The notes beneath the pieces were generated by a model, which saw only the letters and a list, made by a program, of their open reading frames with translations, was not told the origin of the DNA and made no database searches. The position numbers were made by a program, and so were the translations under genes. From Ascidia mentula (taxonomy: Eukaryota > Chordata > Ascidiacea > Phlebobranchia > Ascidiidae), in NCBI GenBank assembly GCA_947561715.1, contig OX387197.1, forward strand, positions 8,429,001 through 8,493,000: a stretch of DNA of 64,000 nucleotides, given 5' to 3'. Each line of letters begins with the position of its first letter. Position 1 is the stretch's first letter. Shown piece after piece: positions 19,734 to 49,369 of the stretch.

Positions 19734-22412
19734 CTATGCACACTTGTAGCCTAAATGCTGTTCATTAAATAAGTACATGGCCACAACCGCATCAATAAAC
19801 ATTACTATGACATAAGTAGAACTCAATGAGATTATGGCAGCTTTATATACATCGTGCTTGGAATTACTGTTCACATACTGGCCCAGTAACATCAGGTAAA
19901 GACAACAAGCCACAACCACAACTCCCAGGCACCAAGATAAGAGAGATGGCGGTGAAATTGATGTGGGGCACAACCTCTTTCCTACATGTGCATGTGTTAC
20001 AATGCTGTGATGAAGCTTACTTTTTTGACTGCAAACAGGGGCAGCAACCTGGTTGTCCAATTCCTTCGCAGCAACAGACGAAGTACCTCCATTTATCATC
20101 ACATCACTTTGTTCCGACTCGAACAAGCTTGTGCGAAAAATCGAGGTTTTAGGTTCAGTTTTTGCTGATGGCAGTGGAACAGTGGGAGTATCATGTTTAG
20201 TACTTGCAGCACCATGTTTTTGGTTGTCAACTAGCAAGGCATCATGAGTAAAGTTGAGGGCTTCATCACTGCTTCTATCCTTTATACTAGCGTGCCCATA
20301 TGTAGTATTGTGATTGTGGAGGGTGGACACAGAATAGACTTCTACCAATGTGGGGGCATCATAATCAAAATGTTTTTTACGTTTATATCCCTTTTGTGAA
20401 GTTTCATCAATGTCTGCAATTTCCAACTTATGAACTTTTTGCTTGTCTGTGGCAAAAGTATCAGGTATTGTTTGTGGACTTCTTACACCAAGGTTCTGTT
20501 TCTCTTCTTCAATATTGTTAAAACTGTCTATTGTATTTAACATTTTTTGTGGAAAAACTTTTTCTAGAGTCGGCTTTTCACAAATATGTAATTTACTTGC
20601 AGTGCTTAAGTGTTCAATTTCATGATCAGACTGGTTCATTTTATCATTAGCCAAGTTAAAACTGCTTATTGTGGATGTCATAGTTTCCACAGAAAATTGT
20701 GATGGAACACCTGTCAAATTCCATCCAGTTTCAGTAATGCTATCTTCTTTACTTGGGTTACCACTATCTTGGTCTATGTCTGGAATTCTTACTATAGTTT
20801 TACTGCTATTCAGTGAGCTGACAGAAGGTTTCTGCTGTTTTATACTGGACTCTGTGCTACAACTTTCAATCTCATCCAAGCTTTCCTGTGAAGTTATTTT
20901 GTGTACTGAATAATTTGCATTTTCCACACTTGATCCCTGGCTTATTTCACGTAACTGTGTCATAAGTTCATTACTTGATGAAGTAATACTGCTTTTTTGT
21001 TTCACTACACTGTAGGACCGAACACTTTCTGTTCCCGTATCAGTAACTAAATCTGGGTAAGACCACCTTCGTTTTAAATCCCAACAGGTGTTATCAAAGA
21101 GAACATTTTTGTCATAACTTTCCTTAACCATGGTTACAGCATCTTGTGGTATATCACTGTGAGATATGCCAAGTAGTTTTAACAGAGGGGCCTTAATCAT
21201 CTTTATAAATGGTAACTTCAACCCTGTGGTTTTGTCAAAAACAACGTGAGAGCAAAACTGATGCAAGTACTCCGAACTAGTTTTGATTTTGCATATGCTG
21301 TAAGCAGCTCTGTACAAAAGCCTCAACACTAATATAAGGGGAATACATGCAGCAGTTCCTAAGATGGCCATTGTTACAAACCCCTCGTCTCCACCAAATT
21401 GGTTTACTGTCGATTTAAACAAGTTTAAACCAAAAATCATGTTGGAGTCGTGGTCAACCTCGGGTAAAGCTGAAAAGAGAAATTGAAAACTGAGAGTAAA
21501 AACCATGCAAGCTGCATTTAACACCATCACGCAGAGAAACCTTTCGATCCTTGAAAGATATGAGTTTTTGGGAGAAGACAACAACGATATTAGCAAATGA
21601 CACTGAATAAGTTTAAAAAATTTGTTGTCCCAAATACTTCGATGTTTCTGAATTTTTACTGAGCAAAGATGATCGGGAGATTTGCTTATGTCTACCTTAG
21701 ACCGACTTGAATACCACATTGAACCACTAGATACATGGAACAGTCTGATACTCCTCAATTGAAGTTTAAATTTAGTCGTCTCTTTCATTCTTGCATAACC
21801 TACATAAGGATCCTCAACCAATAGCCAACCAACTACATCCAGGATCACATCATCAGAAAATATTTCTTCCGAAAATGACTGTAGTTTTAAAATACACTTT
21901 CCTTGGGAAGCACTAAGCAAGTAAACATGATCTGTGCCCCGTATCCACACTATTGGTGCATGCAGCCTCTCTGTTTCCCTCACTCTCACCATTAAATGAT
22001 AATAACAATCCCTCAATGGTGTACACTGGTACTCAAAGCTTAGCTCATACTGGCATCTGTTTTTCCCCTTCTGTGGTGGGACTTCCAGCACAATTTCTGG
22101 CATTCTCCTGTGTAAGTAATACAATATCGGCAGGAAAACAAAAAGTGCGCACAATATGGCCGAAGATAACAGCAGTGTAGGGGTAGGATCAACAGGGTAC
22201 ATTAATTTCCATTTGACCTCTGATGTCAAGATGCTGATTTCTCGGATGGCTGGTGGTGTGTTAGGGTCAAGTGTGCCATGTATGACTAACTGAAACCACA
22301 GCATTTCTGCCTGAATGTCATTGTAGACCCATGTGGTGGCAATAGATGTGTAAGGAATATTAAAATCTATGTCCATGTTAGCCATACCACTTATCCCGGA
22401 ATCACCATACAC
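19734..22412 (-). other. Receptor membrane module: polycystin-1-like, 5 TM helices with PLAT-like domain
   Basis: This single 893-codon exon encodes TM1 (TLLLSSAILCALFVFLPIL, about 22181-22113) followed by an intracellular region with the layout of a PLAT/LH2 domain (YELSFEYQC to HLLISLLSS). Next is the polycystin-like SYLSRIERFLCVMVL entering TM2, then TM3 (GFVTMAILGTAACIPLILVL). A Ser/Thr-rich loop of about 430 residues follows, then TM4 (LSWCLGVVVVACCLYLMLL) and TM5 (STYVIVMFIDAVVAMYLF), and the protein stops about 12 residues later (stop 19734-19736). Polycystin-1 continues with a TOP domain and six channel helices; those are absent here. Confidence 0.72.
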
Positions 22413-25400
22413 CTGAGAAAGAGAAAAGTTTGAACAAAAACACATTCACATACAATTGACAAGGCTTTTTTGTACTTTGAATGGACCAGCTTTCTTCAGT
22501 TGACGGTTGTCACCAACATACAACAGAGAGAAGGATGTTATGTCCGACAAACCATCATCAACACACATAATCATGAAGGCAAATACAGCCTTTGCTTTTC
22601 CAAGGTAAGCTTCAATTAGCCATGGCTTATTATCATTGGGCAAGTATGAAGCTTGCCAGAATGTAAGTGGGTTGTTGTCCCAGATGAATCTAAGAAAAAC
22701 AGTAAAGAGAAACCCTTACCAAAAAAATATCAAATGTAACAGTGTTCAAACGCCCACTTTATGTCACGATGTGAAAGGGATGAATTAGATTCATACACAT
22801 CTGAAAGGCTCATGTGTTTGTCATTAAATTTGAGCCATTGCATTGGCAATGACATATCCAATCTCTTGTATGGGGGGCCAAGGTGTTCCACAATATCAGC
22901 AGTGTTGTTTCCTGCAACTCGACGCTGGGTTGCTAAAAATGATTGTTTTGTGAGCACATGCAACTTTTTCTCTCAACAGTTTTTCCTACAACCTATTATG
23001 GGAATGTATTTGTTTTGGATTGAACTGCATATGAAGTCGATGTTAGGAATGGGGTCCCAGTTTCCCTTTTCACTGCACACAGTTTGTTTGGTCTTTGCTT
23101 TACCTTGAGAGGAAAATAATACATTCTTCGAATGTTTTCCACAGAATATTGCATGGAAGGATCATTAGCATGAATCAAAAGAAAATTGTGGATTTGATGG
23201 AAGCCACAACCCACCTTTTACCACATAATGGGTACCATTATTTTCTCCTATGGAATGTAACGATGAACATGAATACTGAGCAACAGCCATATGTAAGTTA
23301 CTGTTCCAACGCAGCAAAGCATTATTTAATTTCGGAGGGACTGGACACACAATTCTTAAAATAACATAAATTTCAGGTATTAAGATTATGCTGAAGATGC
23401 CTAACAAATAAAACCTTCTGCAAGCAGTGGGTGCTGTAGGATACCACATTCCATCTTTGGCACAATTCATCTGAAGAGATTGCTTTTTTGTCGCACTAAT
23501 CCAATAACCAGTGTCGCATGTAAGTGTGTATGTTGCCATATAACTTGTGTTTTGTAATGAGTTTACACCTTTTTCCACATCCTTTGGTGCATGACATGAT
23601 AGAGGAATGCACTGAAACTGAATTAAATAACAGTGTTCATGGGGTTTTTGAGAACAAACCAACTTACTCTTCCTATGCTTTCAGACCAGCTGGCATTGGC
23701 CTGACAAACAAGCGTCGCTGAATAAATGCCTCTTGAGATCCACAATCCATCTTTACATTTTACTGTGACTGAACTTTCTGAACACAACAGGTAATAGGGT
23801 AAATAACTTTTTTATAAGAACATTAATCAATTAATTACAACCACAAAACACAGAAAAAATAAGGACAATTTTCCTGAGAACAATGAATAAACTTACGATA
23901 CAAAAAACTGGAACCACTCAAAATTGAATGTGGGGGTAGGTTTGGCCTTCCACATGACACTGGTCTACATACTCCAGTAAAATCCTGCAGTTCGCCACTT
24001 TCCATACAAACCACTTGATCATACCCAGCCATTTTGTATCCAAACAAACATACAACAGTTAGAGGGTGACCATAGAGAACTTCAGTTTCCTTCAAATAGA
24101 TTTTGTACTGAACTAAAAATGTTAACTAATAAAGTAAAAGCTAAAAGGCCAGGAAATTTTAAATAAAGTGTTCCTGCATGATACATGAAAACTCATTGTC
24201 AAACAAATAACAAAGTACAGATAGTGTTCTGTAGCAAAAAAACTCACAAAACATTAAAAGAATTTTCACCCAAACCCCCTTATAATGTCATATGTTAAAA
24301 ATGTCAAATTTAAACTATCATTGATTATATGATAAAGTATAAGATTTGATCAAAAAGACATTTTTTGCAGGTTAGTTTAATTTCAACACACATTGTTCAC
24401 AGATTTGTCGATTGGAGAATATGGACAAGATACTGGGAGACAGTGAGTTGTTTCCATGCTGGGAAACCAGTTTCCTTGATCATCACAAGTGTAAACTTGC
24501 ACAGTTACATTTGGTCTAAACCATGCTCCAACGTGACACCTATCATTTCAAACAAACATTGGTTACATAAGCTGGCAAAGTGTTGTTGTTTAATTATGTT
24601 GTTGTAATATGTGTTCAACTTCTGCATAATTTATTATTTATGCATTTATCGATAAATGGACTTACTGGTATTTAGTTTTCCCTCCTTTAAGTCTGCTGGT
24701 ATGCAAAACTTGGTCAGCAAGAGGCATTGTGTGATCGGTGCAAGTAATTACCGTGCAATTCAGTGTAGTCGGGTTAGGTTCAAACTGTCCAGAACTTGAG
24801 CAATATGTCTGAAAGTAAAACAAACATTTTAACATGACTCAGGGGTGGGTATAGGCATTTTCTCTAGGGGTTAACATCCAAAGCTCATTTTGGCACATTC
24901 ATGGCAGTTTTGGTCACTAAAAATATATAACCATGCTTGCAGTGCACAAAGCATTTTAGCGTTGAATCAATTTGAAGACAACCCTTTGGTCTGCCACTGC
25001 AGCTTTTATTCAGTTGTTATAACACATTCTAGGATAGTGATTGCCCCAATCACCAACTCCAGGATCCGAACCAGCTGTGACTTAATTTACCCCACCCGAT
25101 CAACATACTCACAGTGATGGTTGGTTTCCTGTTGTTGACAAAAAACATTCCATGGGGACAGGAGTAAGACACACTGATGTTGTAATAATACACACTGTTA
25201 GCAATGCTGTGGGCTGTAGCCATTTTGACCATCTGATGATGTAATGACAAGTTATCAAGCAGCTTTTACCACAAATGCATTATATTTACCAGTGGTGGAG
25301 CAATACATATCACTCTTTCACAATCAGCAAGGTGAATAAGTGGTGGCTCCCATCTCACCGAGGGTGAACATATTATATTTTGTGATGTTGTGTTTAAAAC

Positions 25401-28400
25401 TTTGACTCTGTAACCGTTGTCACACTGAACTCGAAGAGTTGTACCGATAAGGAAAAAATGTTGTCTTGGGAAACCTTCGAATGAAAAAACAGGTAAACTG
25501 GTCTGTTATCAAGCTCAGTATTTACTATGTTACCCTTTAGGTTTAATGCATTGTCATGTACATCATAGAGTTTGGAATGCAGAGGCAAAACATCAGGTGC
25601 CCAACATGACAAGTGCTTGCACTTCTTTAAGGTATTAAAACCAGGAACCCAAGCAGCTGTAATGAATCACTTTTTAAATAAATGATTTCAACATAAAGGA
25701 GACTGATAATACCCATAGGAGAACATTCCATAGAAACCGTATTTAGTCCAACAGCAATTTCGTAACCGACTTCACATTCGTATTTCCACACTGAACCTAT
25801 ACGCGTGTCACCAGATGTATTTGCATGAAGCATAGATGGTGGGTCAGCACATCTGACACAATTCAAAATAAAAAACAACTTGCAGCACAAAAAAAAACAA
25901 TATTATGTAAGAAAGTTATTCGTTTTTAACATACAATATTGGCTGATAATGGCGATGGCCATACATAAAAAAATTTACCTGCTTTTTCCAACCATAAAAC
26001 ATTGTAATTATCCATCAATTTAACAATATACCACTGTTTTATGTTTGAGATGCTTTTAACATATGAATTACCAACCACAGACATACTTAGAAGGACTGCA
26101 GGTTATGGCGATTGGATCTGGCTCCCACCTTCCATACCACATACAGGTTAGGATGATCTTGTCACCATGCCACAAACTTGAGTAACCACTCTGACATGCA
26201 TATATGACAGTACTACCCACACTATTAGTTTCATTGTCCTGGTTGCTTGACAGCAGCGAGTTTGGTCTGTACAAACAGTGCTATGAAATGCAGGCACACA
26301 ACAACTTTTCTGGTTATTTGTCACAATTGCACACAACTTAACATATTTGCCAATGATTAGTCCAGATACAAACTATACTTAATTTACTTTTGTAGCAACT
26401 GTGGACACTGAACTGGTTCACATGTATATTTGGTTTGATTTTGTGATTTTATCATTGTCCAAGTTCCATGACTGTTGCAAGTGAGTGAAAATGTTGTTTC
26501 ATTTATCAGAGTGTTATTTTGACTTAATGCATATCCAGGAAGACATCTATAATACACACTATCCTGAAAATAAAATAATCAACTGTTTTTTTTTCACAAA
26601 ATCTCTTGTTTCTTACTTAAAATGTTTTATTGTTCAGTTTAAAAGTAAAATCTGCACGTTGTGGTGTGACCAGGACAGAACAAAGACAAATTAAATCATT
26701 CATTTAGTGATAAAAAAAGGCAGCAACCTAGTTGCCAATTACCATGTAGCTGTGACCTGTGACAAGTGCAAATGTTCCATTAACAATAAGAGGTGGTTTG
26801 TCACATGAAACTCTCACACAACCAGAGCCAACATCAGTCTGGGTAATATTAAATACCCAGAGCCCATCTTTTTCACAAAGAGCTGAGCAAAAATAGTGCA
26901 TAATTACACAAAACAAAAATAACAAATTTAACAAGTAAAATTTTAATCCGCATAAGAGTCAGAATATCTCATTTTTGGAATATTAAAAAAATGTACCTTG
27001 GATTAGGTTCGTATTCATTCCAGCCACTTGGAAACCAATATCACACGTATAATTGGCCACTGAACCATAGGTAGTTGTTGAAAATGAAAGGTAAGTAGCC
27101 TTTGGTAAAATTAAACTTGGTGGTCCACAGTCGAGTATGGTGCACTGTAATTGGTTGGGATTTGGTTGCCAAGTGTTGTGAGCAACACATTTTGATGAAA
27201 CTTTTGTATGGTTTGCCACAGAGGAAAAACTATATCCAGAATCACATTGATAATGTGCCTGAAAAAGTAAAAGTTACCAATCACCTGAAATGCCTAAAAG
27301 ATAAATTTACACCTGAAGTGTATTCCGTCAATATATTTTAAGATATGAACTCACTAAGATGAACATAATAAACAGTTTTTCTTCTAAATCAAAGCAGAAA
27401 CAACAAGGCAATTTGGTTTACATTTGCTATGAGAGTTACAAAAAACTAAAATAATTTCACTTTTAGCACAATAATGGCTTTGCTGTTTGCATGTTTTTTG
27501 GCAGTAGGTAATTTGAGATAACACTTACAACACTGTGATATTGAGTTCCAGTGTATGTTAAAGTGGAGAACGGAGCATCTGGTGGTTTATGACAGTGAAT
27601 TTTACTACATTTCATATTTTTCACAGGATCAGGGTTCCAATTAGATCCTGTGACACAGGTTGTGGTACCAGTTGTTACTCCAGGTCGCATTTCGAAACTT
27701 GACAGGCATCGTATTGTGGCCGTCCCATCAAGCTGATATGAGTGAACTACAAACCAAAATATTCATTGGGTGTCTTTTAAGACAAGACAGAAGCAAAGCT
27801 TCTAATTTCTGTTGAACTCACAACAATAAAAACCTCAGTTTAACAGTAAAAATAAAAATAATAAAAAATAATCTTTGCTAAATTACTTTCGACAACTGCA
27901 TTTGCTGGAGGCAAGGGCAAGTGACAATTAAACTGTGTCGATTCTAAACAATATATCAGTTCTGGATTGGGCCACCATTTTCCACTTCCTGTAAAATAAA
28001 AAAAAACATCAACTTTAAAGAATCATATACCGTATTTTACGGACCATAAGGCGCAATTTAAATCCTTTTTTTTCCTCATATATTGATCGTGCGCCTCATA
28101 AGCCGGTGCGCCTAATGTATGGATCAAGTAGTGCTTTATTGCCTACACTCAAAACCAGTACCGATACTATTATTATATAAATAAACCACCGTCTTACACA
28201 ATAAACTACGGTAAAAGCAACTAGCAACTGTGATATTCACTAGGCTCATTTTTTCTTTTGCTCATTGTACTATTGTGACTTGCTTACATTTATTACGTAA
28301 CAAGTAAACTTTTATTAATGAGCTTTATATGGTAACCCATACTCCTTAAAATACGTTGCGTTCTATAGCCTTATGTTAGAACAAAAATCTAATCAAAGCA

Positions 28401-31400
28401 ATTTATTGACAGTGCGCCTTATAATCGGGTGCGCTTTATGGTCCGTAAAATACGGTACACAAAATATTATAATGCTTTAACAACTTACCGCTGCAAGTAA
28501 TATGTAAACTGGTTGTGTTGGCAGCAATATAGTGGCCAGCAATGCATTGCACAACAACTGTTGATTCATAAACATAATTCTGTGTTTCTGGAGCAACAAT
28601 GGTTGCATTTTCAGGAACATAAGGTACCCCACAACTTAATGTGGAAAATGTGATGTCACCCACTGTCATGTTAACAGAGCCCTGAGCATGGTGCAAATCT
28701 CTGCAACACAAAAACCCATTGGATTTCAATTAATGCAAATCCTTTTAACACATTTTTAAAAAACAAAACCTTTTCTTCCTTTGCGTGGTTGTTTCTGTGG
28801 AGTTGAGGACAAGCCATTGGCCATCTTCATTACATTGCAGAGTTACAATGGATTGTAAGCCTGCATTTAATGACCCTTCATCGGCAAAATATGTCACACG
28901 ATCAAGAAACTGTACACCACCGACCACCCTCGAAGAGTGCATACGTTCACCAGGATCTTTGCAGTGAATGCGTCGGCAACCTGTCATGACTGGACTAAAG
29001 GGCAACCACTCGCCTTCAAAACAAACAAAAAACATTAACTGTTGTACAAAAATGGACAACCTAAATGTCTACATACCCATACTCCCACACTGTAATGACG
29101 TCAGCTTTGCACTAGATGTTGCAGAAACGTAGCCATAAGAACATGATACATTAAAAAATGTGCCAACTGGAAAAGCAGTTGAAGCTGAAAAATGGAAATA
29201 GTAAGAGTATGACATGATTCATTTTTTGTCAGTCACTAACCTGGACCCCCTGGGTTGTCAGTTTTGATTTGTGCAAAAGGGATTACAGCTACGCTTGGAC
29301 ATGTAACTGGTTGACATGCTATGTTTATCTCAGTTGGATGCAAGTCCCACAAGCCTTTCAGCCCACAGGTAATAATCCACCATGATTGCTTGTACTGCCT
29401 AGTGAATAAAGTATTAATGTTGTACGGCGGTAAAAATCATTTTCTGACCATACACAAATGATAAAGTGATGTCAAAAAGGTACATCAGCAAACAGAGCAC
29501 ACTGGGTTCTAACTGTGAGTATCAGTTTATCACCTTTTATCAGCCAAAGTCGTTCGAACAAAATACATTCCATCCCTGCACTTGTATTCAACAGTTTCCC
29601 GAAAGTAATATTTTTCTGATGGATCTTTCGCAGTCATTAATGCATTCTCAACTGCCCGGGGGTGGTCACAAGTAGTTGCAACACAACTGAAGTTGCCACG
29701 GGAAGGCTGCCAGTTGCCATCAGATTGACACTTTGACACCATGGTTGTGGAAAAGGTATCAGACTGTCCATCTTTTATCTGGTATCCAAGCTCACATGTG
29801 TACGTTGCAGTTGATTGGTATGTCACAGTGTCCATAGAGAGCTGGGAATGTTCAACAAATCCTGCAGTAGAAAAGCCATAAAGAGTAACAGAAAAAAAAT
29901 TTGCATGTAAATTCATACAAATAATTTTCTTCAAAAAGTAAAAAAAAGCATTATTTTTCTGAAAAAAATGTTGGTGCACACTGATAATAGATATAATAAG
30001 TTAATTAGCATTGACAAAGAGGATAACGAAAAACACACCTGGCTGCTTGCACTCCACGTCAAAACAACTATAACTATTAACATCGGGTTCCCATGATGTG
30101 GCGTAGGACAAATCTCCTTTCTCCAACACTCGCATTGGAGTGGCTATGCATGTGGAAGTAAAGGAATGTTCCGGACCACTTCGACCGAGCCACTTTCCGA
30201 TGGGACATACATAAGTCACTGTGTCACCGTTAGTATACAATGTTGAACCCCCTTTATGTGTTGCCCCCGACAACAATACTTCTGGTGGTGTTGGGCAGTG
30301 GACAGGTTTACACATATATTTTGATTCCGCTGTTAGTTCCGGTTGCCACAATCCATCCAAGTTGCAGGACATGTCAATGTGAGAAGTTGTCGTGTCAATG
30401 GCATAACCAACACTACAGGTAAGGGTAACATGATCCCCGGCAACGTACTGGTTTTTGTACAACTAGAAATACACAAACAATTATCTGTAATGGAGTTCTA
30501 TGTAATTTTTGGGTTTGAAAGGCATAAACATAATCGGAATATGTAGAAATGGTCGAGGTAAAAAAACTATTGCAGAATAGTATTGTTAGTTGGTACTTGT
30601 CAAACATAGGTACAGATATATGATGAGCAAGGTACGTAACCAACCATGAATTGTGATTTTTATGCAAGTAGTAAATCAAAGGACACCAATATTAGTATGA
30701 ACTTGCAGATATACCTGTGAAATATTCTGAAATACAGAGTGGGCAATTTCTGGTAAACTGTCACACACCAACAATTCACAATCAATTGTGGCTGGAGGTG
30801 GGAACCACAAACCATCAGATTGGCAAGTAACCATCATGAAAGACAACAATCCCCCTATCTTTCGTCCAGGCATGCATGTGTAGGTAACCTAAACCCAACT
30901 GGAAATGTCACTCACAACTTTTTTATGTCAACAAATCTGATTGTCGGTAAATATAAAAACAATTGTTTTATGGAAGCTAACCTGGCTGCCAATTGTTAAA
31001 TTGGCTCCACTTTGTGACGCAAACTTAATCGGAGTCGGATTTCTACATGACGAAATGCTACATGTGAGTTCTTCTGGATCAGGTGACCACAAGCCTTCCC
31101 GTGTGCAAACAATTTCTGAATAAACTCTGGCAAAGGTAAACCAGTAGCCCTAAAAAAATGCTGTCATAAAAAAGTGATCTGTTGTTTCTCAACAAAAAGC
31201 AGTGAACGGAATAATTAAGTGATACAATGCACAGTGTATTTGGTATGTTTCAGAACTAAGAATGAAAAATTATATTGGAAATTCATGGAGTTGATAAAAC
31301 TAATCCTAAAACTATCTCACAAATCAATTCCAACTGCTTCCCAATCTAAAACCGAAACAATACAAAACTGCAGTATGAATGATTTAAACAAATTACTCAA

Positions 31401-37400: not shown

Positions 37401-40400
37401 AAGAAAACTTATTTCCAGCCACAGAGCAAACATCATCTTGTAAAGGAGCAACATTCACTTCAGATCCATTTTCTCTTTTCATATAAAGGCAACCACACCA
37501 TCCAACTCCTTTCATAAGTTATGATTTTAGTATAAAGTATGTATAAAGAGAGGATGATTTAAGTATAAAGTATGTATAAAGAGGGGATGATTTAAGTATG
37601 AAGTATGTATAAAGAGAGGATGATTTAAGTATGAAGTATGTATAAAGAGAGATGATTTTAGTACAAAGTATGTATAAAGAGAGGATGATTTTAGTAGAAA
37701 GTATGTATAAAGAGAGGATGATTTAAGTATGAAGTATGTATAAAGAGAGGATGATTTTAGTACAAAGTATGTATAAAGAGAGGATGATTTTAGTACGAAG
37801 TATGTATAAAGAGAGGATGATTTTAGTATGAAGTATGTATAAAGAGAGGATGATTTAAGTATGAAGTATGTATAAAGAGAGGATGATTTTAGTACAAAGT
37901 ATGTATAAAGAGAGGATGATTTTAGTATGAAGTATGTATAAAGAGAGGATGATTTTAGTATGAAGTATGTATAAAGAGAGGATGATTTTAGTACAAAGTA
38001 TGTATAAAGTCGCCACAAGAGGATGATTTTAGTACAAAGTATGTATAAAGAGAGAATGATTTTAGTAGAAAGTATGTATAAAGAGAGGATGATTTAAGTA
38101 TGAAGTATGTATAAAGAGAGGATGATTTAAGTATAAAGTATGTATAAAGAGAGGATGATTTAAGTATAAAGTATGTATAAAGAGAGGATGATTTAAGTAT
38201 AAAGTATGTATAAAGAGAGGATGATTTTAGTAGAAAGTATGTATAAAGAGAGAATGATTTTAGTAGAAAGTATGTATAAAGAGAGGATGATTTTAGTATA
38301 AAGTATGTATAAAGAGAGGATGATTTTAGTATGAAGTATGTATAAAGAGAGGATGATTTAAGTATGAAGTATGTATAAAGAGAGGATGATTTTAGTACAA
38401 AGTATGTATAAAGAGAGGATGATTTTAGTATGAAGTATGTATAAAGAGAGGATGATTTAAGTATAAAGTATGTATAAAGAGAGGATGATTTAAGTATAAA
38501 GTATGTATAAAGAGAGGATGATTTTAGTAGAAAGTATGTATAAAGAGAGAATGATTTTAGTAGAAAGTATGTATAAAGAGAGGATGATTTTAGTATAAAG
38601 TATGTATAAAGAGAGGATGATTTTAGTATAAAGTATGTATAAAGTCGCCACAAGAGGATGATTTTAACATAAATGATAAACATTCAAATTACAAATAAAA
38701 CAACATATCATACTTTCCTGAGAAATTAGATTGGAAGTTGCATCATTGACAACTGCCATGGTGGCACCAGTTCTGTTTTGGAGACACTTGTGTGTTTCAA
38801 AGAATGTAAAGCTGGTAAAGGACGGTACAAGTCCCCTATGTACGATAAAATATGAATCTACAAGAGAAATTTGTTGATGAAAAATTTGAATTTAGGTAAT
38901 CACCAACAATAAACTGTGCAACACCTGGTGGCTTTAATTCCCAATGACACAAAAACTTCAGGTCCTCGTGAGAAGCCCACAAAGAGAGCAGACCAGTGGC
39001 ATGTTTGCCACCAACCACAATCTCACCTGTCAAACTATTGGGATCCACAACCAAGTAGTTTGATGAAGAATTTCGCCTAAAAAACATGTAATATTAGTTT
39101 TCGTATTTGACAACAAATTTAGGCAACCATCAAACACAAATTTGTAACTCCATTTTTTTGACAAAAAGTTAAGCATTATTGAAGTTGGATCTATTTGTAC
39201 AGTCACATAACTGCCCAAGCTCACAGCTCATTAAACCTCACTGACCTTATCCTTAAGAGGTATCCACTGTGTGGGCCGCAAATAAAACTTTGGTTTACAC
39301 TGTCAAGTGAGCAGTTTTCCAGAAACACACTATTCCTAATAATTCCATGATCGTTTTCACTGTCATTGAAGGTAGTAGCATGCAGACAAAGACCTGTCAT
39401 GTATTTTTGTATGACTTTCACAATGAATTTTGTACAGTTTTAAACGAGTAGATTTTGCAATTTCGCATGTGCACTTTTACCTAAATCAATGTTGTATAGA
39501 TGACCATGAGTTAACCACGTCCACCACAGGCCAGATGTATTGTCAAATGAACACGATTGCAGCAAAACTTTTCTCGTCTCATTATCGCCATACATGCACC
39601 TAACAACATGCAATAACTAAACAATTTCAGAAAAACAGAAACCTTTCATGAAAATTAGATTACTTGTTTCGTATTCCCATTAACAGAGTAATTAAGTCTA
39701 TCAATTACCTGTCTGTGTACATAAATCTTTTTTCACCATTCAATATTGACCCCATGCTCTGAATCTTGAACACATGATACTGACGCAAGGTGTTTAGATA
39801 CATGGTGTGCTTGTTCAGTCTTCCATCCTGACTCTGCCATACTCTTTTCGCCAAGTTCTCTTTACTTGCCCCAATATCTTTTACACCCAACCAGTACTCG
39901 TGATCTTAAACAATCATACACTGCATTTGGGTGCACCCTCTCATGATAACTCCTTCACAGTGGTACATTTCAAATACTACGAAAATAATGCTTGTCTTAC
40001 TTGCATGTCCTTTGTCGGAAGCAATTAGCCATCTTACAAGGTCGTAAATTATTTTATTTTGTGGAAAGGCAAGATGTCCACCACGTTGAGCGCATCGCTT
40101 ATTGGCATCTGCATAACTTGTATAGACTGTGTAGTTGGAGTGCACACTGTAGCAAGCTGTAATAAAATATTAAAAGAATTTTATTTAAACCATTTGCAAA
40201 CCATTGCGACCGAATATGCAATAATCAAATGTTAACAAGAAATAAAACCAACAGGTTAAGCTATGTTGAGTAAAAAAACTCCAATTTCAAAAATCATAAA
40301 TGATTGTTGTCAGAAGTTTGTATTCTAACAAAAGTCAACAAATAAATCCAACAAATATTGATGATTTTTTCTAAAATTTCTGCCTATGTGCAAGTCAAAA

Positions 40401-43400
40401 CTAGGTTTAATATATACTGAGTACTACCCACTATAAAATCGTGACATACATTGATTAAATGATCTCCAACCAGGTGGGCAAGCTGGCAGACATGTGTGTT
40501 TACCCTCTGACCATGTCCCATCATCCTTACATGTCGTCTGCACCAAATTTTTGCCAGGTGCTGTCAGGTAGCCTTTTGAACACTGATATACTGCCACACT
40601 TCCAAAACTGTACCTCCGTTGTACTGTCAGCAACAATGCATTTGTGATTTCAGCTGGTGGTTTACAAAACACACGTTTACACTCAATGAGGTCATGTTGC
40701 CATTCCCCTGCAGATAAATAGAAGAAGATTACCATATAGAAATATCCTGCACACGCATTACCTTTTTCTGTGCACACTAGTTCCTGTAATATATATTGTG
40801 TTGATACATTGTAACCTTTCTTGCAGACGACTTTAATTTTTGATTGCACAGCGTAAAAATCTGCAGCACTGCCATAAAATATGCTTACCACCTTGAAACT
40901 GCAGAATAAAATCACAATTGAATAGAACCACATTTTACAGGTTATTACGAAAATAAGTGTTTGCTATTTTGGTTTGGTTGCATAAGTTCAATGAATACAA
41001 CTTCATGTGTGAACATTTTGCAGTTTGCCTAAAATATTAAAAAACAAAAGTACGCCCTACAAATTATTTTGAAACAAAAAAATACCTTCTTAACACTGCT
41101 TTGGGAAATGTGCAGTGAAGTGGGCATTTCTCTATAGTCATGCAATACTGAGCAACATTTTTTTTCACCCAGCACCAAGGTCGAACCAGATTTCGAGTAG
41201 GGTTCCTGCAAAAGTTGTGATCTGGAAAACTCATGTCCCCGTTGTAATACAATCTCCAGTTAAGACACCACCATCTGCCATTCCAGTGTGTATATCCTTA
41301 ATTAAATAATATTTTTGTATTACTTTGTTAGATTTTATAATTTTGTACCACAATCACAGAAACATGTATTTCCAGGTCAAAATCCACCAGCTTGGTACTT
41401 GGATACCGAATGACAATATACCAAGATGACTTATTTTAACCTGAAAATAAACGTTTTTGTGATCGTGGTATAAATTATACATAAGATGAAAATCGTCAAA
41501 GCTATTGCAACAAAATGAGAAATAATTCCCAGAATCGATCAAAGGTTCCATAATTTTTGAACATGTATAAGTGGGTATTTCATTGTTTAAGCTATGTTTT
41601 CATAATTTTCAAAATAAATATTTAAAAAGTTATTGAATTCAAATGAGTTTTTGGCGGCACCAGTGAATGACTGTCCTCGGTCACTATAACATGCTCCCCG
41701 TGTTTGACATGTGAATGGCAAGGCCTCTTCTCCTGTGGTAGCCTCCCATGTTCTTGTTGCAGTATCCATGACTACAACTGCAGGCAATGGACACCTTGAA
41801 AACAAAAACAACTACAGAAATAACAGACATTTAGGTGTTGACAATAAGGCCACATAACACAGAAAAAAAAGCTAGTTTGCGAGGGTTATAATTTATGTTC
41901 TAATTGCAAAGCTGCAGACAGGGTGTGTACATGCACTGTTTCGACCTGTAAGGTCTCATCAGTGCAGCTCTTGAGTGGCACTGTGCTAGGTTTTACACTA
42001 GCAGGCACACTAGTCTCCACTTTGTTATTTCCAGGATAATTATTGATGTTTTTTTCAATTCTGGTTACCTGGGAACCAAACAATCTTGCCAAGGTGTGTC
42101 AGGTTTTAGAGTCATACACCATGTATGGTCTTCAGACTTCCGATCCAAAATTTCCGTTGGGGGGCCTGGAGGTCTTCTACAACTACTTCCACTTAAATCA
42201 AATTTTGTCAAATTCTTTTGTGAAAATGGATGGCGGTGGGGTTTCTAATAAACATGATGCAATTTTTTAGTTGCATTTACAACACTATGGTTGTTCACAT
42301 TACACTTACACCTAGTTATCATCACAGCATAGAGTTTTAGCATTTCTTAGTTGTGTATAATGTATTATTAAATAAAAATAAAAAATTTAGAGCAAAAAAA
42401 TATTTTTGTTAAAAACTTGGCTGGCTCTACAAGGTACAACCAAATTAAAAAAAAAATTGTCAAATAATTCTGTTTTTCTGTTAGGGGAGTAATAATAAAG
42501 AGATGCAATTGCTAAGGAAACATTTGCAAAACATAACAAATACCATTGAAATCCATGGTTGGCATCTTAGTCCATCCCTTGTCCATGATCTAAAAGGCAT
42601 GTAGATATTACATTAATAAAATGTAAAAACAGTTGCTGTAAAATACAAAATATGACCACAACAACCTTGAACCACGATAGTCTTTCATTTTTATCCACTC
42701 AAGAGCACAATCAGCCATTTCCGACACCCCAACTGCATTGCTGTGTGCAGTCTCTGCTTCCCACTTATCTGTGTTGGTTTCTTTCTGTAATGTATCAATT
42801 ATGTTGGAAACAGTACACAACTTTTGTTGCAAGCCAATATTAAGCTTTTTGCCCCAAGTTTTTGAATGGTTGTTTTCCACCTCCCAGTGCAACTGGCTGC
42901 GATCCTACGACAGAAGGTGATTCTCCATGAGGAAATCACCTTTACATGGGCGCCTGATTCGATAACCTTTATGGTTTTATCGTTATTCGCAAAATAAATG
43001 TGATTTGATTTTTTTTATCATTGTTATCAAGGATTTAGCAAATATCTGTACTCGGCCAGCAATAGTTTACCTTCACAACCAGAATGTGCAAGAGTCCTAA
43101 TTTGGTTTCAGCCAGTTCTGTAGACAAATAGTATTCTTTGTCTGATGCTGATCTAACATAATCTCCTTTTAGTTTAGTTTCATCGTAAAACACTGGGGCT
43201 GATTTAAAGATCCAGGACTGATATTTCAATCTTGTCATGTTACAAGGGCGCAGAGTGACTCTAAGTTGTTTTCCCTCTTCCACGTTGTCCAACATGGAGT
43301 CAAGACACAAATACAAGTCACGGTGTCTAATTTGTGTGACGACACCTGCACAAATTATTACATTTCATGAAGGACAAGTGACTTGCAATGTAATTTAGGA

Positions 43401-46400
43401 TCCTAAGTGCCTTTGGACCTAAAGTAAAGGATTACCATAACACAATTTTATCATTTGTGAATTAATCACAATGTTTTGCTTAGAAAATTTAACGACAACA
43501 CCCAGTTTTTCCGGCATGGATTTTTTGCACTTTTAATCAAAAATTACCTCGTACACTTAATTAACATATATACTGTTATGTAACTATGCCCTGTTCAAGT
43601 TTTTAAATGCCCCTGTTAGAAAATCACATTCAGAAGAATGTAACAGAAAACAGTAAAAACATTTTTCTGACCATACCAGACAGTTGCCATAAGAAAGCGG
43701 AGTTGTCGATTTGACAAGGAACAAACACAATTGTAATGTTTGTCGTTTCATTGACATTTGCTCCAATCTCAACTTCAGGTTTGGCACATTGTGTTAGATT
43801 GAGCAAGTTTTGAAGGGCAAATTGTTGGCCTATTGCTCCTCTGCTTTCAATAGACTGAAACTCTGTCCAAGCTTGAGGTTTTAATTGTGATTTTTCGGGC
43901 ACAAACTTCCATGAAGTACTTCCCCTGCCTGGGGTTGGGGTTAGACATACTGAACTAAGACCTAAAACAAAACAAAAATAACATGTTACATACTGATATG
44001 GCCAGGGCAGTGAAATATGCAGCTTTAGGAACTGGCATATATTAAACTTCAAACATCTGCATAAGTATATGTTAATTATTTCAGTAACACATAATGCCCT
44101 ATGTATTTTCGCACATCAACTAAAAGACCTTCAGATCAAAATCTGTTAGCATTCGAAACATTCCTCATGTATTAGAAAATAATGTTCATACCAGTAAAGC
44201 AAATTTTTCTGAAAAATACATGGCCAAACATATTACCTGAACATTTACACCTAAGAAAAAATTGGGTCATCTCATGCATCACTGTATAAGTTCCACCAAC
44301 ATGAGATTCCTTCTCCCATATCCACACCTGGGAATGTTCGTTTCTTTCACATTCTTCAACTACAGCGTAAGTGTGCATTTGGTAAGTAGCAAGACACAAA
44401 CCACTTGCCAAGTTCTTCAAAAGTCCATCACCCAGCAATACCCACCTATAACATAAAACAAAGTCTGCACCATACATAAAGTTGAAACAGAAATAATTGA
44501 GAAATTTGATCCTACAGAATCAATCCAAATTTCACGTTTGTAGATATAACTAAAAAAAAGATAGTAGCTCAAACCTTTGGGATGATTGGTCTTTATTACA
44601 TGGGCTCATTTGTAACAAGTTGGAGTCGAGTGCTACTGGCTGTGTAAGACATTTTCCACATCCCATCAGCATAGCATATGGGCCTGGTGGAGTTCTAGAT
44701 AGCATGATGGAAATGGGGACTATCCCAACCTCCGGAAGCCAGGTGGTAAATAGCGAATTTCGTATTTCTGAAATGTGAACCTAAGAAAATATGTTTCAAA
44801 ATATATATGTTGTGTACATGTTAACCTTGAAGGCAGATGCCTTTTACAAACTGCTGTACTTGCTGCATGCTGCATATAGCTAAAATAATGACACAAATAT
44901 CAACAACCACCTAAAAACTACCTTTTTGGTTTGATTGAACACGACCTTGAACATTGATCCCAGCTTTTTGCTGTTGAAATTCCAACCAGATATGACATAA
45001 CTTTGTGTCTCTATCCAATGCTGAGAGGAGGTGGATAGCTTTCGCTGGCATGGTGACAAAACTAAAATGTCACCGTGTACTGGAGCTTTCGATGAAAAAC
45101 TAATGCACTCCTTAAAGGCAATGTTAACTATTGAGAATGATGACCACCAGAAAAAACGTTGTTCCTCTTTGGAAAAGTCACACAAATCAACCACCAATGA
45201 AATACTGTTATCAGGTTGCTGTTTTGCGGCAATGCAATGACGTTCTCCATTCTCTGGGCGCCAAAGAGACCGAATCAAGAATTGGTGTTCAATGTCAATT
45301 GAAGGAAACACTCTAAACAAGCAGTTTGCAAAGTATTACGTCTGCTGTTATGCCTTTAGTCTATTAGCCTTGACGATATTAGACAATTTCATACTGAGAG
45401 AGATTTTTTTGGAATACATACTGTGAGTTATACAAGCTATTGATCAATGCATAATTTTACTTGTGTTAGTGGTAATTTTTCATACTTGGAACTGCCTGGA
45501 CCCGATATATCCAAGCAATCATCAACATCACAAGGGGAAGGAACCCTCCTCTTTGTCGCATAACACCACACCCCCATTGAGTCTAGATTAGGATTGCGGC
45601 AACTGTGGTCATTTTCCTTCGGTGGATAAAGCAGACCAGACGCCTTGGGACGAGTATGTTCTTTCACATTACTGCCAGGGGATGCCCATTGCTCACAAGG
45701 CACATCATCGTGTGTGGCATCAACATTTCCATAGTAGGTTCCACCCAAACCAAGTGCACACCCCGCGTCTTCATTACCCTTTCTGATTCCAGCTCTGGTC
45801 CATGGATTTGTTTCACCAACTGGTTGACCATCTGACACATATCGCAACGAGTGGTCAAATGTACCAGATTGTGAGGTGTCCATCTCCTCATAAACACCTG
45901 TACAATACAGAAACTCCAATGTTCATGATTTATATCTGGTAATATTGCAGAATTTATTGACCATGTACACATCTGTCAAATCCTATTTGTGTTTTTAGTA
46001 GCATGTATTTCCGACAAAACCTTCAATTGTTTTTTTGTTGCTTACCAACGTAGGATTTTGTTGTAAACCATTGAAGTAGTTTCACATTGTTAATTACTTC
46101 CAGATTTTTCAATGCCACCAGCGTCCAATTGTTTGCAGCACAATAAGCTTGTGCCTCCAAAAATGTCTTTCGCTCTCTGAAAGCCTACAACAACATTTTT
46201 ATGTTGGATCCATGGAGAAATGAGGGTCGAAGTGGTGGATTATGTTGTTAGTTCCTTTGCATTGTGAAATTTAGTTTCATACTATCAATCGACATGGACA
46301 TTGCTTAATTGTAGTTTGTATTTTTTGTATGATTTTTCAAAATTGTTGCAAAAGCAAAGAGAGGTTTTGAAATACATATACCCAAACATAATTGTATCAA

Positions 46401-49369
46401 AATTGAAAACACCAAAGTGAAGCAAACAAATAATTTTAAAAATACCTAATGGTTTTACCAAAACATAACTGTTTAAAAACTACTCGTCATGAACAGTTTG
46501 CAAATTTCTTGCTTTCAAAATATACCCCCAAGGGGTTAATTTACCCCTGGTTGGGAAACGTGGATCTCAAGTAAGTGGCTATTTGACTTCCAAAGCTTCT
46601 CAAAAAATTATTAAAAATTACATTTTACTTTTAAACAGAGTAAATGTGATATTATCAACTTGGACTTAGTTGTGGTGAAACAGAGTCTGTGATGTGGCCA
46701 GCTTTACTCTATGTTTTTCCTCCCGGCAACTTCACAAAGCAATGTGAAAGGTTTCAAAATGGCACAAAAACTTGATTGATACATACTAATAAAGTAATCT
46801 GTGCACCTTAAAGCAATTGACATCAGGTTTGTGTAATGAAGATGACACATAGTGCCATGAAGGCAAACAGTACTGGGGACATGGGTGAGTGTTGCATTGA
46901 ACTATTCTGTAGTCTGATCCCTTGCAGTAGGTTCTTCCATACTTTGCACATGCTCGAAGAACTTGTTTAGTTCCACCACCACAATGTCTTGAACACTCTA
47001 CAGGAGTCAATATGCCAACCGCACCACCACCTGAAAAGTAAAATATAAATGTTTTTCTTGGAAGAAATTTAATCTAGTCCTAACAAATGTAATAAAGCGG
47101 AAACCGACAAACAATTAGTAACATAAATTTCTTTATTTACCCATTGCAAGAAGCAATTTCGGGTAACATAAGATTACCTCGTTTTGAGCAAATATGAAGT
47201 CTATCTGTTTCAAGGATGTGAAAGTCTGTTGTTTGCCGACTGAACACAGAAGTCATTTCAAAATACAGTCCTGGGCCTTCTTTACTAATGGCAAGGTATT
47301 TTTCATTCACTTTATCTTCTGGCATAACTTTTTCTGGATCCTCAAGCATTACTCTGTTTGTAGGATTATCACCTGCATTTTTATCAGTGCTTAGGTTGTT
47401 TTCAGAATAAGCCCAATGCATTTGCATGAGGGCTTAGAAAAGTTGTTTGTCATAACCGTAAAAGCATCACACCATTAAATGCTTCAATCTCTATTTTAAT
47501 AGATTAACATGAAACATGTTAAGATTATGACCATAACAATTTGTTGCAACTTTCTCAATATAAGGTCACAGTGACTCATTAAAAAACCATAAATAAAAAT
47601 GCGAAATTAGTTTTCTTACATTGCCATCTCTGTGTGTAATCGAGTATATCACATGGTTTCAATTTGACGACAACCTCTGTTGAATTCGGGCCTGCCTTGT
47701 TTACTGCCAAACATAGGCCAGTAAACTCATGTCTTATATTATATTCAAGTCTCCATTGCCACCAAAAATTATCCAGCTTACGGCTTACTTGTCCTGGGCA
47801 CCTTCGAAATGACCTGCATTGAATCATAACAGATGTTAATCTGTTTTAAACCCACAAGCAAACAGTTACCAGGGAACAGATTCACCACTTTCAGTAACAT
47901 TGACATCCCAGCAAGTATGTGTTTCCCAATTCATGATCACCCTAAGAGGGTCCCATCTCAAGCCAAGTGGACAATATTCTTCATCACTGCGATCACTGCA
48001 CTCATAGTATCCATTGCAATTCTGTTGAAATTGTGCAGAACTTCATAGTTTCATATTGAAAATAAGGGAGACACGTATACAGTTCCCTTGGAAATGTTTT
48101 AATTTTTTAAGTTGCATGCTGGATATTGTTCATGTTTAAATGCAATAATAGTTTGCATGCTTTAATTTTTTTTTAATTGTTTGTACTGCATTTTACATTA
48201 AGCTGTATTTCGTACAAAACCTTTGAAATATCAAGGCAGCGGCTTGTATCACACAAAAATTGGTTGACTCCACAGGTGTGAACAGGGGCTGTGCTGTCGC
48301 TAACAGGACTGGACAAAGCCTTTCTTCCCATTGGTAACATTGACCTTGATCTTCCAACAGCTTTTTTATCAGTTGATAATCTATTTCATTTCATAATCTG
48401 TATGTTTCAACTCAAACACAGACACATGTGAAAAAACACTTAGGTGCAAAGTTACCAATGTTTTGTCAAAAAAAAATAGTTACAAAACAACAGTTTTAAA
48501 AAAGTTGTTGTCAGTGGCTACTAAACTAATAATATACTAAGCATATTGCCACAACCCCAGACCACCATACGTGTTTGAACTGCAAAAATCACTTGGACAG
48601 TCTTCCACGTCATACTTGATACCATGACAGTCTAAACTTGCGCACGATCTAGTTCTCAACCTCTTGGAACCATCACAGTTTTTACTGCACTTACTCCAAC
48701 TGTTCCAAGATCCCCACCTGAAGGACAAAACACAATGGATTTTGGCACAAATAAAATGAAGTAACTGCATTTGAGCAAACATGTGAGGTCTTGTTACATG
48801 CATTGTGACAGACTGCTTTTGTTTAATTTATGTTTGTTTAATTCCTTTTTTAGTTAATGAAACATGGCTCACGTGTTCAAGTTGTCACACAAATCACATG
48901 TTTGTGCACAGTTGTCAGCTACATACTGCCACTTGCAATGTCCCTGCTCTTTGTGAATAGCACAGAATGATGGGTGAAGTGTCTTGTCAGTGCATGAGAG
49001 GCTGTCTTTTGCCAAGATCCCATTTGGTGGTGGTGCTTAAAAACAATCACTTCATTAAAAAAACATAAACAAAACAATGGTCTACAATAGGCACCACACA
49101 TTTAGAACAATTTCTGTGTTTTTAATAAAAACAATTAGTTTTTTGTTTTTATTAAACATTAAAAAAGAAAAAGACTGTTTAGAACAAAAATTATGATCAT
49201 TGTAGTTATTTAAGCATGGCGCACTATAGTATATAAGCATTATGCACCATAGTTGTAATGACATTGATTTGAGATGTGGTAAAACCACAAATTTAATCGG
49301 ATTTCAATTTATTTATAACTAACCGAAAAGTAACACGACAACCAAATATGTGCAAATTCCGCCGTTCAT
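19734..49369 (-). CDS. Giant mosaic surface receptor: ShKT/TSP1/LDLa/ricin/C-type lectin/kringle/CCP array/polycystin-like 5-TM
   Basis: One minus-strand gene of dozens of short exons is inferred, from ATG 49369 to stop TAG 19734-19736. Order: signal peptide, ShKT, TSP1, LDLa, ricin-type, TSP1, C-type lectin, kringle, ricin-type cluster, two kringles, two CCPs, C-type lectin, ricin-type, about 28 more CCPs with an embedded ricin-type segment, discoidin-like domain, and a five-helix membrane module like the first half of polycystin-1. Continuity is supported where checked: exons 49369-49324, 49035-48873, 48717-48566, 48360-48221, 48021-47870 and the one starting 47813 join in consistent phase, and the kringle exon ending near 41073 (phase 2) joins the CCP exon near 40901. 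I did not verify every junction, so two adjacent genes cannot be fully excluded. It probably binds glycans or proteins at the cell surface; the function is unknown. Confidence 0.72.
22446..22963 (-). other. Receptor discoidin (F5/8 type C)-like domain
   Basis: Exons around 22935-22745 and 22690-22475 encode MQWLKFNDKHMSLSDV, then WDNNPLTFWQASYLP and PWLIEAYLGKAKAV, with IMCVDDGLSDITSF; the domain continues into the last exon (WVYNDIQAEMLWFQLVIHG). The pattern of Trp in a D/N-x-x-x-x-W context, then WIEADLG-like, then a final hydrophobic strand is that of discoidin-like beta sandwiches, but divergent. No clear GPS cleavage motif is visible before the first helix. Confidence 0.5.
28030..28455. 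mobile_element. TIR transposon (426 bp) in receptor intron
   Basis: The ends CCGTATTTTACGGACCATAA and TTATGGTCCGTAAAATACGG (reading in) are near-perfect inverted repeats, flanked by TA on both sides (28028-28029 and 28456-28457). The interior repeats GCGCC(T/C)ATAA phrases. No ORF, so it is non-autonomous. Superfamily is uncertain: a Tc1/mariner-like TA target or an IS3EU-like element are both possible. Confidence 0.85.
31435..31481. repeat. Perfect 19-bp stem, 9-nt loop hairpin
   Basis: TTAAAAATGTACTGATCTT and its exact complement flank CTGGCATAA. It lies in an intron of the receptor. The stem is AT-rich and short for a miRNA precursor. Confidence 0.8.
33844..34600 (-). other. Receptor ricin-type segment embedded in the CCP array
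   Basis: Exons near 34597-34326 and 34065-33850 interrupt the CCP pattern. They encode DTCLTAAALPVLN followed by VVKKCEKGNIYQHWECMK, the Cys-Leu ... Cys ... QxW signature of a beta-trefoil repeat. CCP modules resume at about 33665. Confidence 0.6.
36909..37508 (-). other. Receptor cysteine-bearing exons of uncertain fold
   Basis: Exon 37508-about 37378 encodes GWCGCLYMKRENG and DDVCSVAG; the next (about 37095-36912) encodes SGDSLCRRTDG, DWCVAM and SVCETKAQ. They belong to the receptor by position and splice sites but match no domain I recognise. They could be the end of the preceding beta-trefoil or a WSC-like module. Confidence 0.5.
37525..38660. repeat. 33-bp minisatellite, about 34 copies, filling a receptor intron
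   Basis: The unit GATGATTTTAGTACAAAGTA plus TGTATAAAGAGAG (33 bp) repeats with small variants (TTTAAGTATAA, TTTTAGTAGAA). Two copies carry the insertion TCGCCACAAG, at 38010 and 38645. Because 33 is a multiple of 3, the minus strand stays open with an 11-residue repeat (SSLYTYFILKS). The flanking junctions make it an intron (37509-38713), nearly all of it repeat. Confidence 0.95.
38714..40160 (-). other. Receptor C-type lectin 2 and ricin-type segment
   Basis: The exons near 40160-39990 and 39905-39710 give a lectin fold: YADANKRCAQRGGHLAF and EYWLGVKDIG. Next come ricin-type exons with RCMYGDNETRKVLL, LCLHATTFND and FLCHWELK. The last exon here (to 38714) ends NDATSNLISQE and is followed by the intron filled by the minisatellite. 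Confidence 0.7.
40440..40901 (-). other. Receptor CCP/sushi modules 1 and 2
   Basis: Exons encode IKVVCKKGYNVS, ELVCTEKG then GEWQHDLIEC, followed by FCKPPAEI, VYQCSKGYL, TTCKDDGTWSEGKHTC: two CCP modules with the conserved four Cys and Trp. The segment ends CPPGW, the start of C-type lectin 2. An in-frame ATG at 40933 lies upstream of the acceptor and is intronic. Confidence 0.82.
41073..42900 (-). other. Receptor kringles 2 and 3
   Basis: Kringle 2 is split: an exon ends ADCALEWIKMKDYRGS, the next gives WTRDGLRCQPW, and a third (42197-42070) gives SSCRRPPG, HTWCMT and PWQDCLVP. Kringle 3 is split between an exon ending GACYSDRGQSFTG (donor after ACT G) and an exon starting YTHWNGRWWCLNW with NFCRNP, RPWCWV and YCMTIEKC. 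The joined phases agree. The third kringle runs straight into the first CCP Cys (PLHCTFP). Confidence 0.8.
43035..45320 (-). other. Receptor ricin-type beta-trefoil cluster
   Basis: Several consecutive exons (about 45315-44922, 44770-44575, 44448-44237, 43963-43676, 43346-43070) encode repeated Cys-Leu and QxW-like motifs: HCIAAKQQ, SPCQRKLSTSSQHW, SGLCLATYQMHTYAV with NEHSQVWIW, and LYLCLDSM with NMTRLKYQSWIF. This implies at least two, probably three, beta-trefoil lectin domains in tandem. Sugar-binding residues cannot be judged by eye. Confidence 0.7.
45437..46190 (-). other. Receptor C-type lectin 1 fused to kringle 1
   Basis: Exon 46190-46046 supplies the first half of a C-type lectin (EAQAYCAANNWTLVAL). 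The next exon supplies the second half (YVSDGQPVGE, GCALG, YGNVDATHDDVPCEQW). It then runs without a break into the second half of a kringle: HSCRNPNLDSMGVWCYA and ending PCDVDDC. The first part of the kringle looks short or merged with the lectin end. Confidence 0.75.
46786..47813 (-). other. Receptor ricin-type beta-trefoil segment and second TSP1
   Basis: Exons around 47813-47620 and 47430-47175 show the ricin-B pattern: TGLCLAV, then KLKPCD and a QRWQC (QxW) motif, followed by RLHICS. The exon ending near 46810 encodes a TSP1 core, VECSRHCGGGTKQVLRAC with HPCPQYC at its end, running directly into the next lectin (CLPSWHYV). Confidence 0.75.
47870..48360 (-). other. Receptor LDL-receptor class A module
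   Basis: Exons 48360-48221 and 48021-47870 join in phase 0 to give a class A repeat: C...NQFLCDTSRCL then NCNGYYECSDRSDEEYC. The terminal C-S-D-x-S-D-E-E acidic cluster is the calcium site. The first exon also carries a basic linker (GRSRSM). Confidence 0.85.
48566..49369 (-). other. Receptor N terminus: signal peptide, ShKT, TSP1
   Basis: Exon 49369-49324 encodes MNGGICTYLVVVLLFG, a typical signal peptide. Exon 49035-48873 encodes a six-cysteine ShKT module: SCTDKTLHPSFC, GHCKW, then NCAQTCDLC. Exon 48717-48566 encodes a thrombospondin type-1 repeat beginning WGSWNSWSKCSKNC with the basic stretch KRLRTRSC and ending DCPSDFC. Junction phases (1, 2, 1) agree. These modules are extracellular and disulfide-rich. 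Confidence 0.85.

Follow-up and report, generated by a model that had tools for sequence, protein, structure and literature searches.

Long arrays of CCP modules are found in receptors and regulators such as CR1, factor H, SEZ6 and CSMD, in which the array serves as a stalk or a binding surface. In the ascidian Ciona, the sperm protein s-Themis-A is polycystin-1-like, crosses the membrane five times and acts as a self-sterility receptor; s-Themis bears REJ, GPS and LH2 domains, and the fibrinogen-like v-Themis lies in its first intron on the opposite strand (PMC9265791; PMC7018956). Here we describe a locus of Ascidia mentula within a window of 64,000 nucleotides (the whole stretch of DNA analysed; positions refer to it unless a contig is named). 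One gene at this locus probably encodes an adhesion or recognition receptor of ~4900 residues on the cell surface, composed of N-terminal binding modules, a CCP stalk and a five-pass anchor. The predicted protein has a signal-like start, modules in a fixed order, split domains whose exons match in phase, and five hydrophobic helices near the C-terminus.

The gene runs on the minus strand from an ATG at 49369 to a stop codon at 19734 (both checked on the sequence), and these limits, the single strand and the order of modules agree with what the initial annotation of the window had proposed. The final model has 69 exons and 4892 codons (stop included), with GT-AG introns throughout and consistent phases. 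It was built by a dynamic program weighting codons, splice sites and CCP matches; exons 1 to 22 were set by hand from the sequence and exons 23 to 69 are an automatic draft. Because the procedure forbids stops and enforces phase, an open chain of 69 exons is not evidence by itself. It is very unlikely, though, that the model is a misprediction or a pseudogene in which genuine exons of CCP-type genes were joined by the modelling method: exon borders in 40.0-37.2, 33.7-32.1 and 26.1-24.4 kb are in our judgement poorly fixed, and no second half of the C-type lectin turned up, but the LDLa module and kringle 2 exceed the curated Pfam cut-offs only once their exons are spliced, and the last exon is open over 892 codons. 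On the 5' side, plus-strand exons starting near 50.3 kb (50.3-51.3 kb), which we take to encode the histone chaperone ASF1, imply that the receptor gene cannot reach much further. The other neighbours are presumably ALG6 (3.7-4.9 kb, plus strand), a ZNF367-like zinc finger gene (17.0-17.3 kb, plus strand) and TRAPPC13 (52.8-53.2 kb, minus strand). A 319-codon open frame at 10314-11273 on the plus strand has a signal-like start and is Lys/Ser-rich thereafter, and Rfam gave no match at the gathering threshold anywhere in the window.

Exon 1 (49324-49369; all parts of the gene given below are likewise on the minus strand) carries the start codon, opens with the hydrophobic, signal-like peptide MNGGICTYLVVVLLF and joins exon 2 in phase 1. 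The ShKT module of exon 2 (48873-49035), as named in the initial annotation, is matched by Pfam ShK at 20.6 bits, just under the cut-off of 20.9, and at 17.6 bits in a longer piece. TSP1 module 1 in exon 3 (48571-48717) scores 22.9 bits, exceeding the cut-off of 21.6, and TSP1 reaches 29.5 bits over two stretches in a piece of exons 2 to 8, the second stretch being placed by eye in exon 8 (46807-47030) as TSP1 module 2. The LDLa module is split by a phase-0 intron between exons 4 and 5 (47870-48299); its score of 19.8 bits in an earlier mis-spliced draft rose to 32 bits (cut-off 24.1) with the two exons joined, in a piece scored without one lysine codon that is present in the final join. A ricin-type unit in exons 6 and 7 (47178-47813) follows at 22.8 bits, under the cut-off of 29.

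The weakest joint of the gene is at 46.8-45.9 kb, from TSP1 module 2 to kringle 1, where no domain crosses exons 8 to 10. At its best-scoring end (46807) exon 8 stops in phase 0, and phase 1 is required by exon 10, so that a nondescript exon 9 of 79 bases (46098-46176), itself doubtful, must be invoked to connect them. This phase conflict, together with the absence of a spanning domain and one AATAAA at 45958, would fit a division of the locus into one gene for a secreted ShKT-TSP1-LDLa-ricin-TSP1 protein (49.4-46.8 kb) and another for a five-pass kringle-ricin-CCP receptor (45.9-19.7 kb). We regard this division as unlikely: a scan of the interval yielded no hydrophobic exon from which a second gene could start, and the sole candidate it gave that runs from an ATG to a phase-1 donor has a start that is not hydrophobic.

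Downstream of this joint, exon 10 (45486-45897) encodes kringle 1 at 41.2 bits (cut-off 34.3), which was also the sole match in the window in an exon-by-exon kringle search of the genome. Exons 11 to 16 (42666-45312) contain ricin-type units scoring 60.6 bits over two stretches, with 45.3 bits across exons 12 and 13 (above the Pfam cut-off) and 19.4 bits across exons 14 and 15 (under it). Kringle 2 is assembled from four exons (exons 16 to 19, 41661-42904) and scores 42 bits (E 1.2e-10), above the cut-off. Kringle 3, over exons 19 and 20 (41086-41794), reaches 22.9 bits, under the cut-off of 34.3, and was absent from the match list when the join sat in a 298-residue piece. The kringle count therefore goes beyond the initial annotation by two modules, and two of the three kringles lie above the cut-off; the TSP1, LDLa and ricin-type modules that it listed are likewise confirmed by their scores. 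The first CCPs occupy 40450-41115, where CCP 1 scores 30.8 bits and two stretches score 64.4 bits in a longer piece. Judged from cysteine spacing, the kringle 3 exon supplies the first cysteine of CCP 1, and exons 21 and 22 supply the remainder of this module; its Pfam alignment begins past the exon 20-21 junction. With a kringle spread over four exons and an LDLa module restored by splicing, a gene break between the kringle and CCP parts, which the initial annotation had named as the case against a single gene, is unlikely at the sequence level. Domains spliced in phase thus give good support to the proposal of a single mosaic gene from 44.8 kb, where ricin units lie, onward into the CCP arrays; at 46.8-45.9 kb the proposal is without domain support. 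Elsewhere in the genome, six kringle matches are present within one 1843-codon open frame at C73:10167204-10170578.

Between the first CCPs and the second array, a segment of uncertain structure (38714-40156) contains the N-terminal half of a C-type lectin (Lectin_C, 17.4 bits) and ricin-like pieces (20.6 bits), both under the cut-off, so the C-type lectin of the initial annotation is retained in its first half only. Near these exons is a minisatellite with a 33-base unit in ~34 copies with 93% matches (37521-38645), which is intronic in the model. CCP array 2 (34754-36535) is recognised both by a CCP HMM and by Pfam Sushi, a ricin-like unit at 19.9 bits (33867-34595, under the cut-off) lies between the CCPs, and in CCP array 3 (22990-33159), where the draft has 28 junctions between exons 41 and 69, CCP matches cross 16 of them. 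All seven CCP pieces submitted to Pfam scored above the Sushi cut-off of 20.7. With the HMM, which derives from 14 of this gene's own CCPs and whose counts are thus partly circular, 48 matches above 4 bits were found on minus-strand open frames (45 of them in 40.9-23.0 kb), against 5 on the plus strand, counted over the whole window. The spliced draft holds 32 such matches, 28 at 9 bits or more, and 19 of the 32 cross an exon junction; Pfam by itself gives 22 Sushi stretches over the pieces submitted, one perhaps counted twice. In total, 4077 residues make up the draft ectodomain, 210 of them cysteines, and it bears 47 N-glycosylation motifs.

A second giant mixing many CCPs with ricin-type units is found on chromosome 5 (C69:7126530-7137908, that is, L066:2031-9899 plus L067:2-3508), where a 3792-codon frame, intronless within the frame, contains 29 Sushi and five Ricin_B_lectin stretches. 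Its similarity to the window model is weak and local (22% identity, E 7.5e-6, over one CCP-ricin pair), and unlike the window gene it has an uninterrupted frame, ends in a CUB and a trypsin-like domain (GDSGG was not seen by eye) and has no matched five-pass part.

The region preceding the membrane part (22227-22924) had been called discoidin-like. Its exon borders are provisional; a tail exon at 22800-22758 in the automatic draft is doubtful, and the longer alternative 22924-22758 is preferred. Pfam gave no match to this region at E<=10, F5/8 type C (discoidin) included, and a PDB search gave two weak unrelated matches only, with no discoidin at E<=10. The discoidin label was accordingly dropped, and the region ahead of TM1 is without a supported fold.

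The last exon (19734-22412) encodes the end of this region, TM1 to TM5 and a short tail. Hydropathy reveals five hydrophobic segments, in agreement with the five helices first proposed, arranged as TM1, ~190 residues, TM2, TM3, a 449-residue loop (23% Ser/Thr), TM4 and TM5. The evidence for the polycystin-like label given to this part is very thin. The motif HLLISLLSSPKNSYLSRIERFLCVMVLNAACMV aligns at the equivalent place of TM2 to a polycystin-1 profile made of four paralogues plus polycystin-1, with 31% identity over 35 columns, an hhalign score of 28.4 and a probability of only 12%; 3 of 1000 local shuffles that preserve hydropathy scored as high or higher. A plain TM2-3 HMM of the four paralogues also aligned the last exon at the expected place, and ranked it ninth, behind 7 of 2000 shuffles and one further open frame from the window. 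For TM4-5, 133 of 300 shuffles were as good by hhalign, and the paralogue TM4-5 HMM did not list the last exon. No Pfam match to the last exon was found at E<=10, and its two PDB matches were at chance level. By comparison, the corresponding piece of L054, a genuine polycystin-1-like gene in this genome, gives a match to polycystin-1 (6a70) at E 5e-33. A single-sequence structure model of the TM region was useless (pLDDT 36). Apart from itself, the last exon has no paralogue in the genome at the sensitivity of the search, in which 2 candidates were scored.

The accessory domains of the polycystin-1 family (PKD1, PKD1L, PKDREJ) were also searched for. Between TM1 and TM2, no PLAT/LH2 match was found in Pfam at E<=10, the paralogue PLAT HMM did not list the last exon, and none of the 45 PLAT places in the genome falls in the window. 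Before TM1, no GAIN/GPS match was obtained at E<=0.1, nor at E<=10 in the pieces scanned, and REJ had no Pfam match in the pieces scanned. The reading frame stops after TM5, ahead of any PKD channel domain (TM6-11), and the window is not among the 11 channel places of the genome. Nor does the 449-residue loop contain ITIM or ITAM tyrosine motifs. The family is resembled in the succession of TM1, a long region, TM2-TM3, a loop and TM4-TM5, and possibly in the TM2 motif; the window gene differs in having no significant match, no match to PLAT, GAIN/GPS, REJ or channel regions, and five helices instead of eleven. It is quite conceivable, at somewhat below even chance, that the membrane part is another multi-pass or lineage-specific anchor whose likeness at TM2 arose by chance. 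The lack of a family or structure match, the four accessory domains unmatched in the pieces scanned, the TM4-5 result and the low HHalign probability for TM2 all favor such an anchor, but a polycystin-1 core agrees with the TM layout and with where the TM2 match falls. Because of the layout, we place a much-diverged polycystin-1-type core, as in Ciona s-Themis-A, slightly above even. A polycystin link is possible, not established.

Four clear polycystin-1-like genes (L051 to L054) are found in the A. mentula genome. L051 and L052 (C1, 5.28 and 5.31 Mb) are adjacent, ~30 kb apart, have PLAT and channel regions, and are possibly a tandem pair. None of the four has a fibrinogen place within 1 Mb among the matches listed. 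Dozens at least of Fibrinogen_C matches, dense and mostly on one strand among the matches listed, are found at C70:16876242-17970226, which suggests a large tandem family. At the window locus, no nested fibrinogen gene of the Ciona type was found: intron 1 has 288 bases, and no Fibrinogen_C match lies inside the window among the matches listed of 176 genome places.

On its predicted anatomy, the protein would be an adhesion or recognition receptor with a long reach. Its lectin, kringle, LDLa and TSP1 modules near the N-terminus may bind glycans and proteins on a microbe, a coat or another cell; the array of ~28 CCP modules would act as a stalk that keeps them far from the membrane; and the five-pass part would anchor the protein and could pass a signal inward via the TM1-TM2 region and the 449-residue loop. 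A polycystin-type pore is not possible for this protein alone, as it has no channel domain. Innate immunity commonly employs CCP and lectin modules, so that immune recognition fits the module content. An immune or complement-like receptor instead of a gamete one is a serious candidate, if one we hold at somewhat below even; the CCP-ricin giant on chromosome 5, with its CUB and trypsin-like end, is in line with it. Gamete recognition fits too, given a five-pass polycystin-1-like sperm protein in Ciona and a block to selfing in A. mentula, which is cited as blocking self-fertilisation in PMC7344649; such a citation is a reason to test the gamete idea and nothing beyond that. In its most specific form, a tunicate gamete or self-recognition receptor with a polycystin-type five-pass core, without REJ, GPS or recognisable PLAT and with a lectin-kringle-CCP ectodomain, would do the job of s-Themis in Ascidia, which we consider a long shot. 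The main proposal, that of a single receptor gene, can be tested at once, since polyA RNA-seq (ERR10378036) accompanies the published A. mentula assembly (PMC11109543). If one transcript carries all the modules, it would show the reach of exon shuffling in tunicates, and the gene would become a candidate for telling self from non-self, or for recognising microbes, in an ascidian cited as blocking selfing (PMC7344649).

Among the open-licence literature matches listed, this combination of modules was not described; polycystin, sushi, kringle and ricin came together in one listed paper, on astacins. Orthologues or an existing annotation of the gene may well exist. The window gene resembles CR1, factor H, SEZ6 and CSMD in its long CCP array, and we know of no CCP-rich receptor or regulator that combines a five-pass anchor with kringles and ricin-type units. 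Every single module is known; of the combination we found no description among the matches listed. Compared with s-Themis-A, the predicted A. mentula protein shares a five-pass membrane part behind a large ectodomain and a phlebobranch host that blocks selfing, whereas REJ, GPS and LH2 belong to s-Themis and were not found here, and the CCP-lectin-kringle ectodomain belongs to the window gene. The receptor thus appears to be laid out like s-Themis-A, a likeness of layout that does not imply membership of its family.
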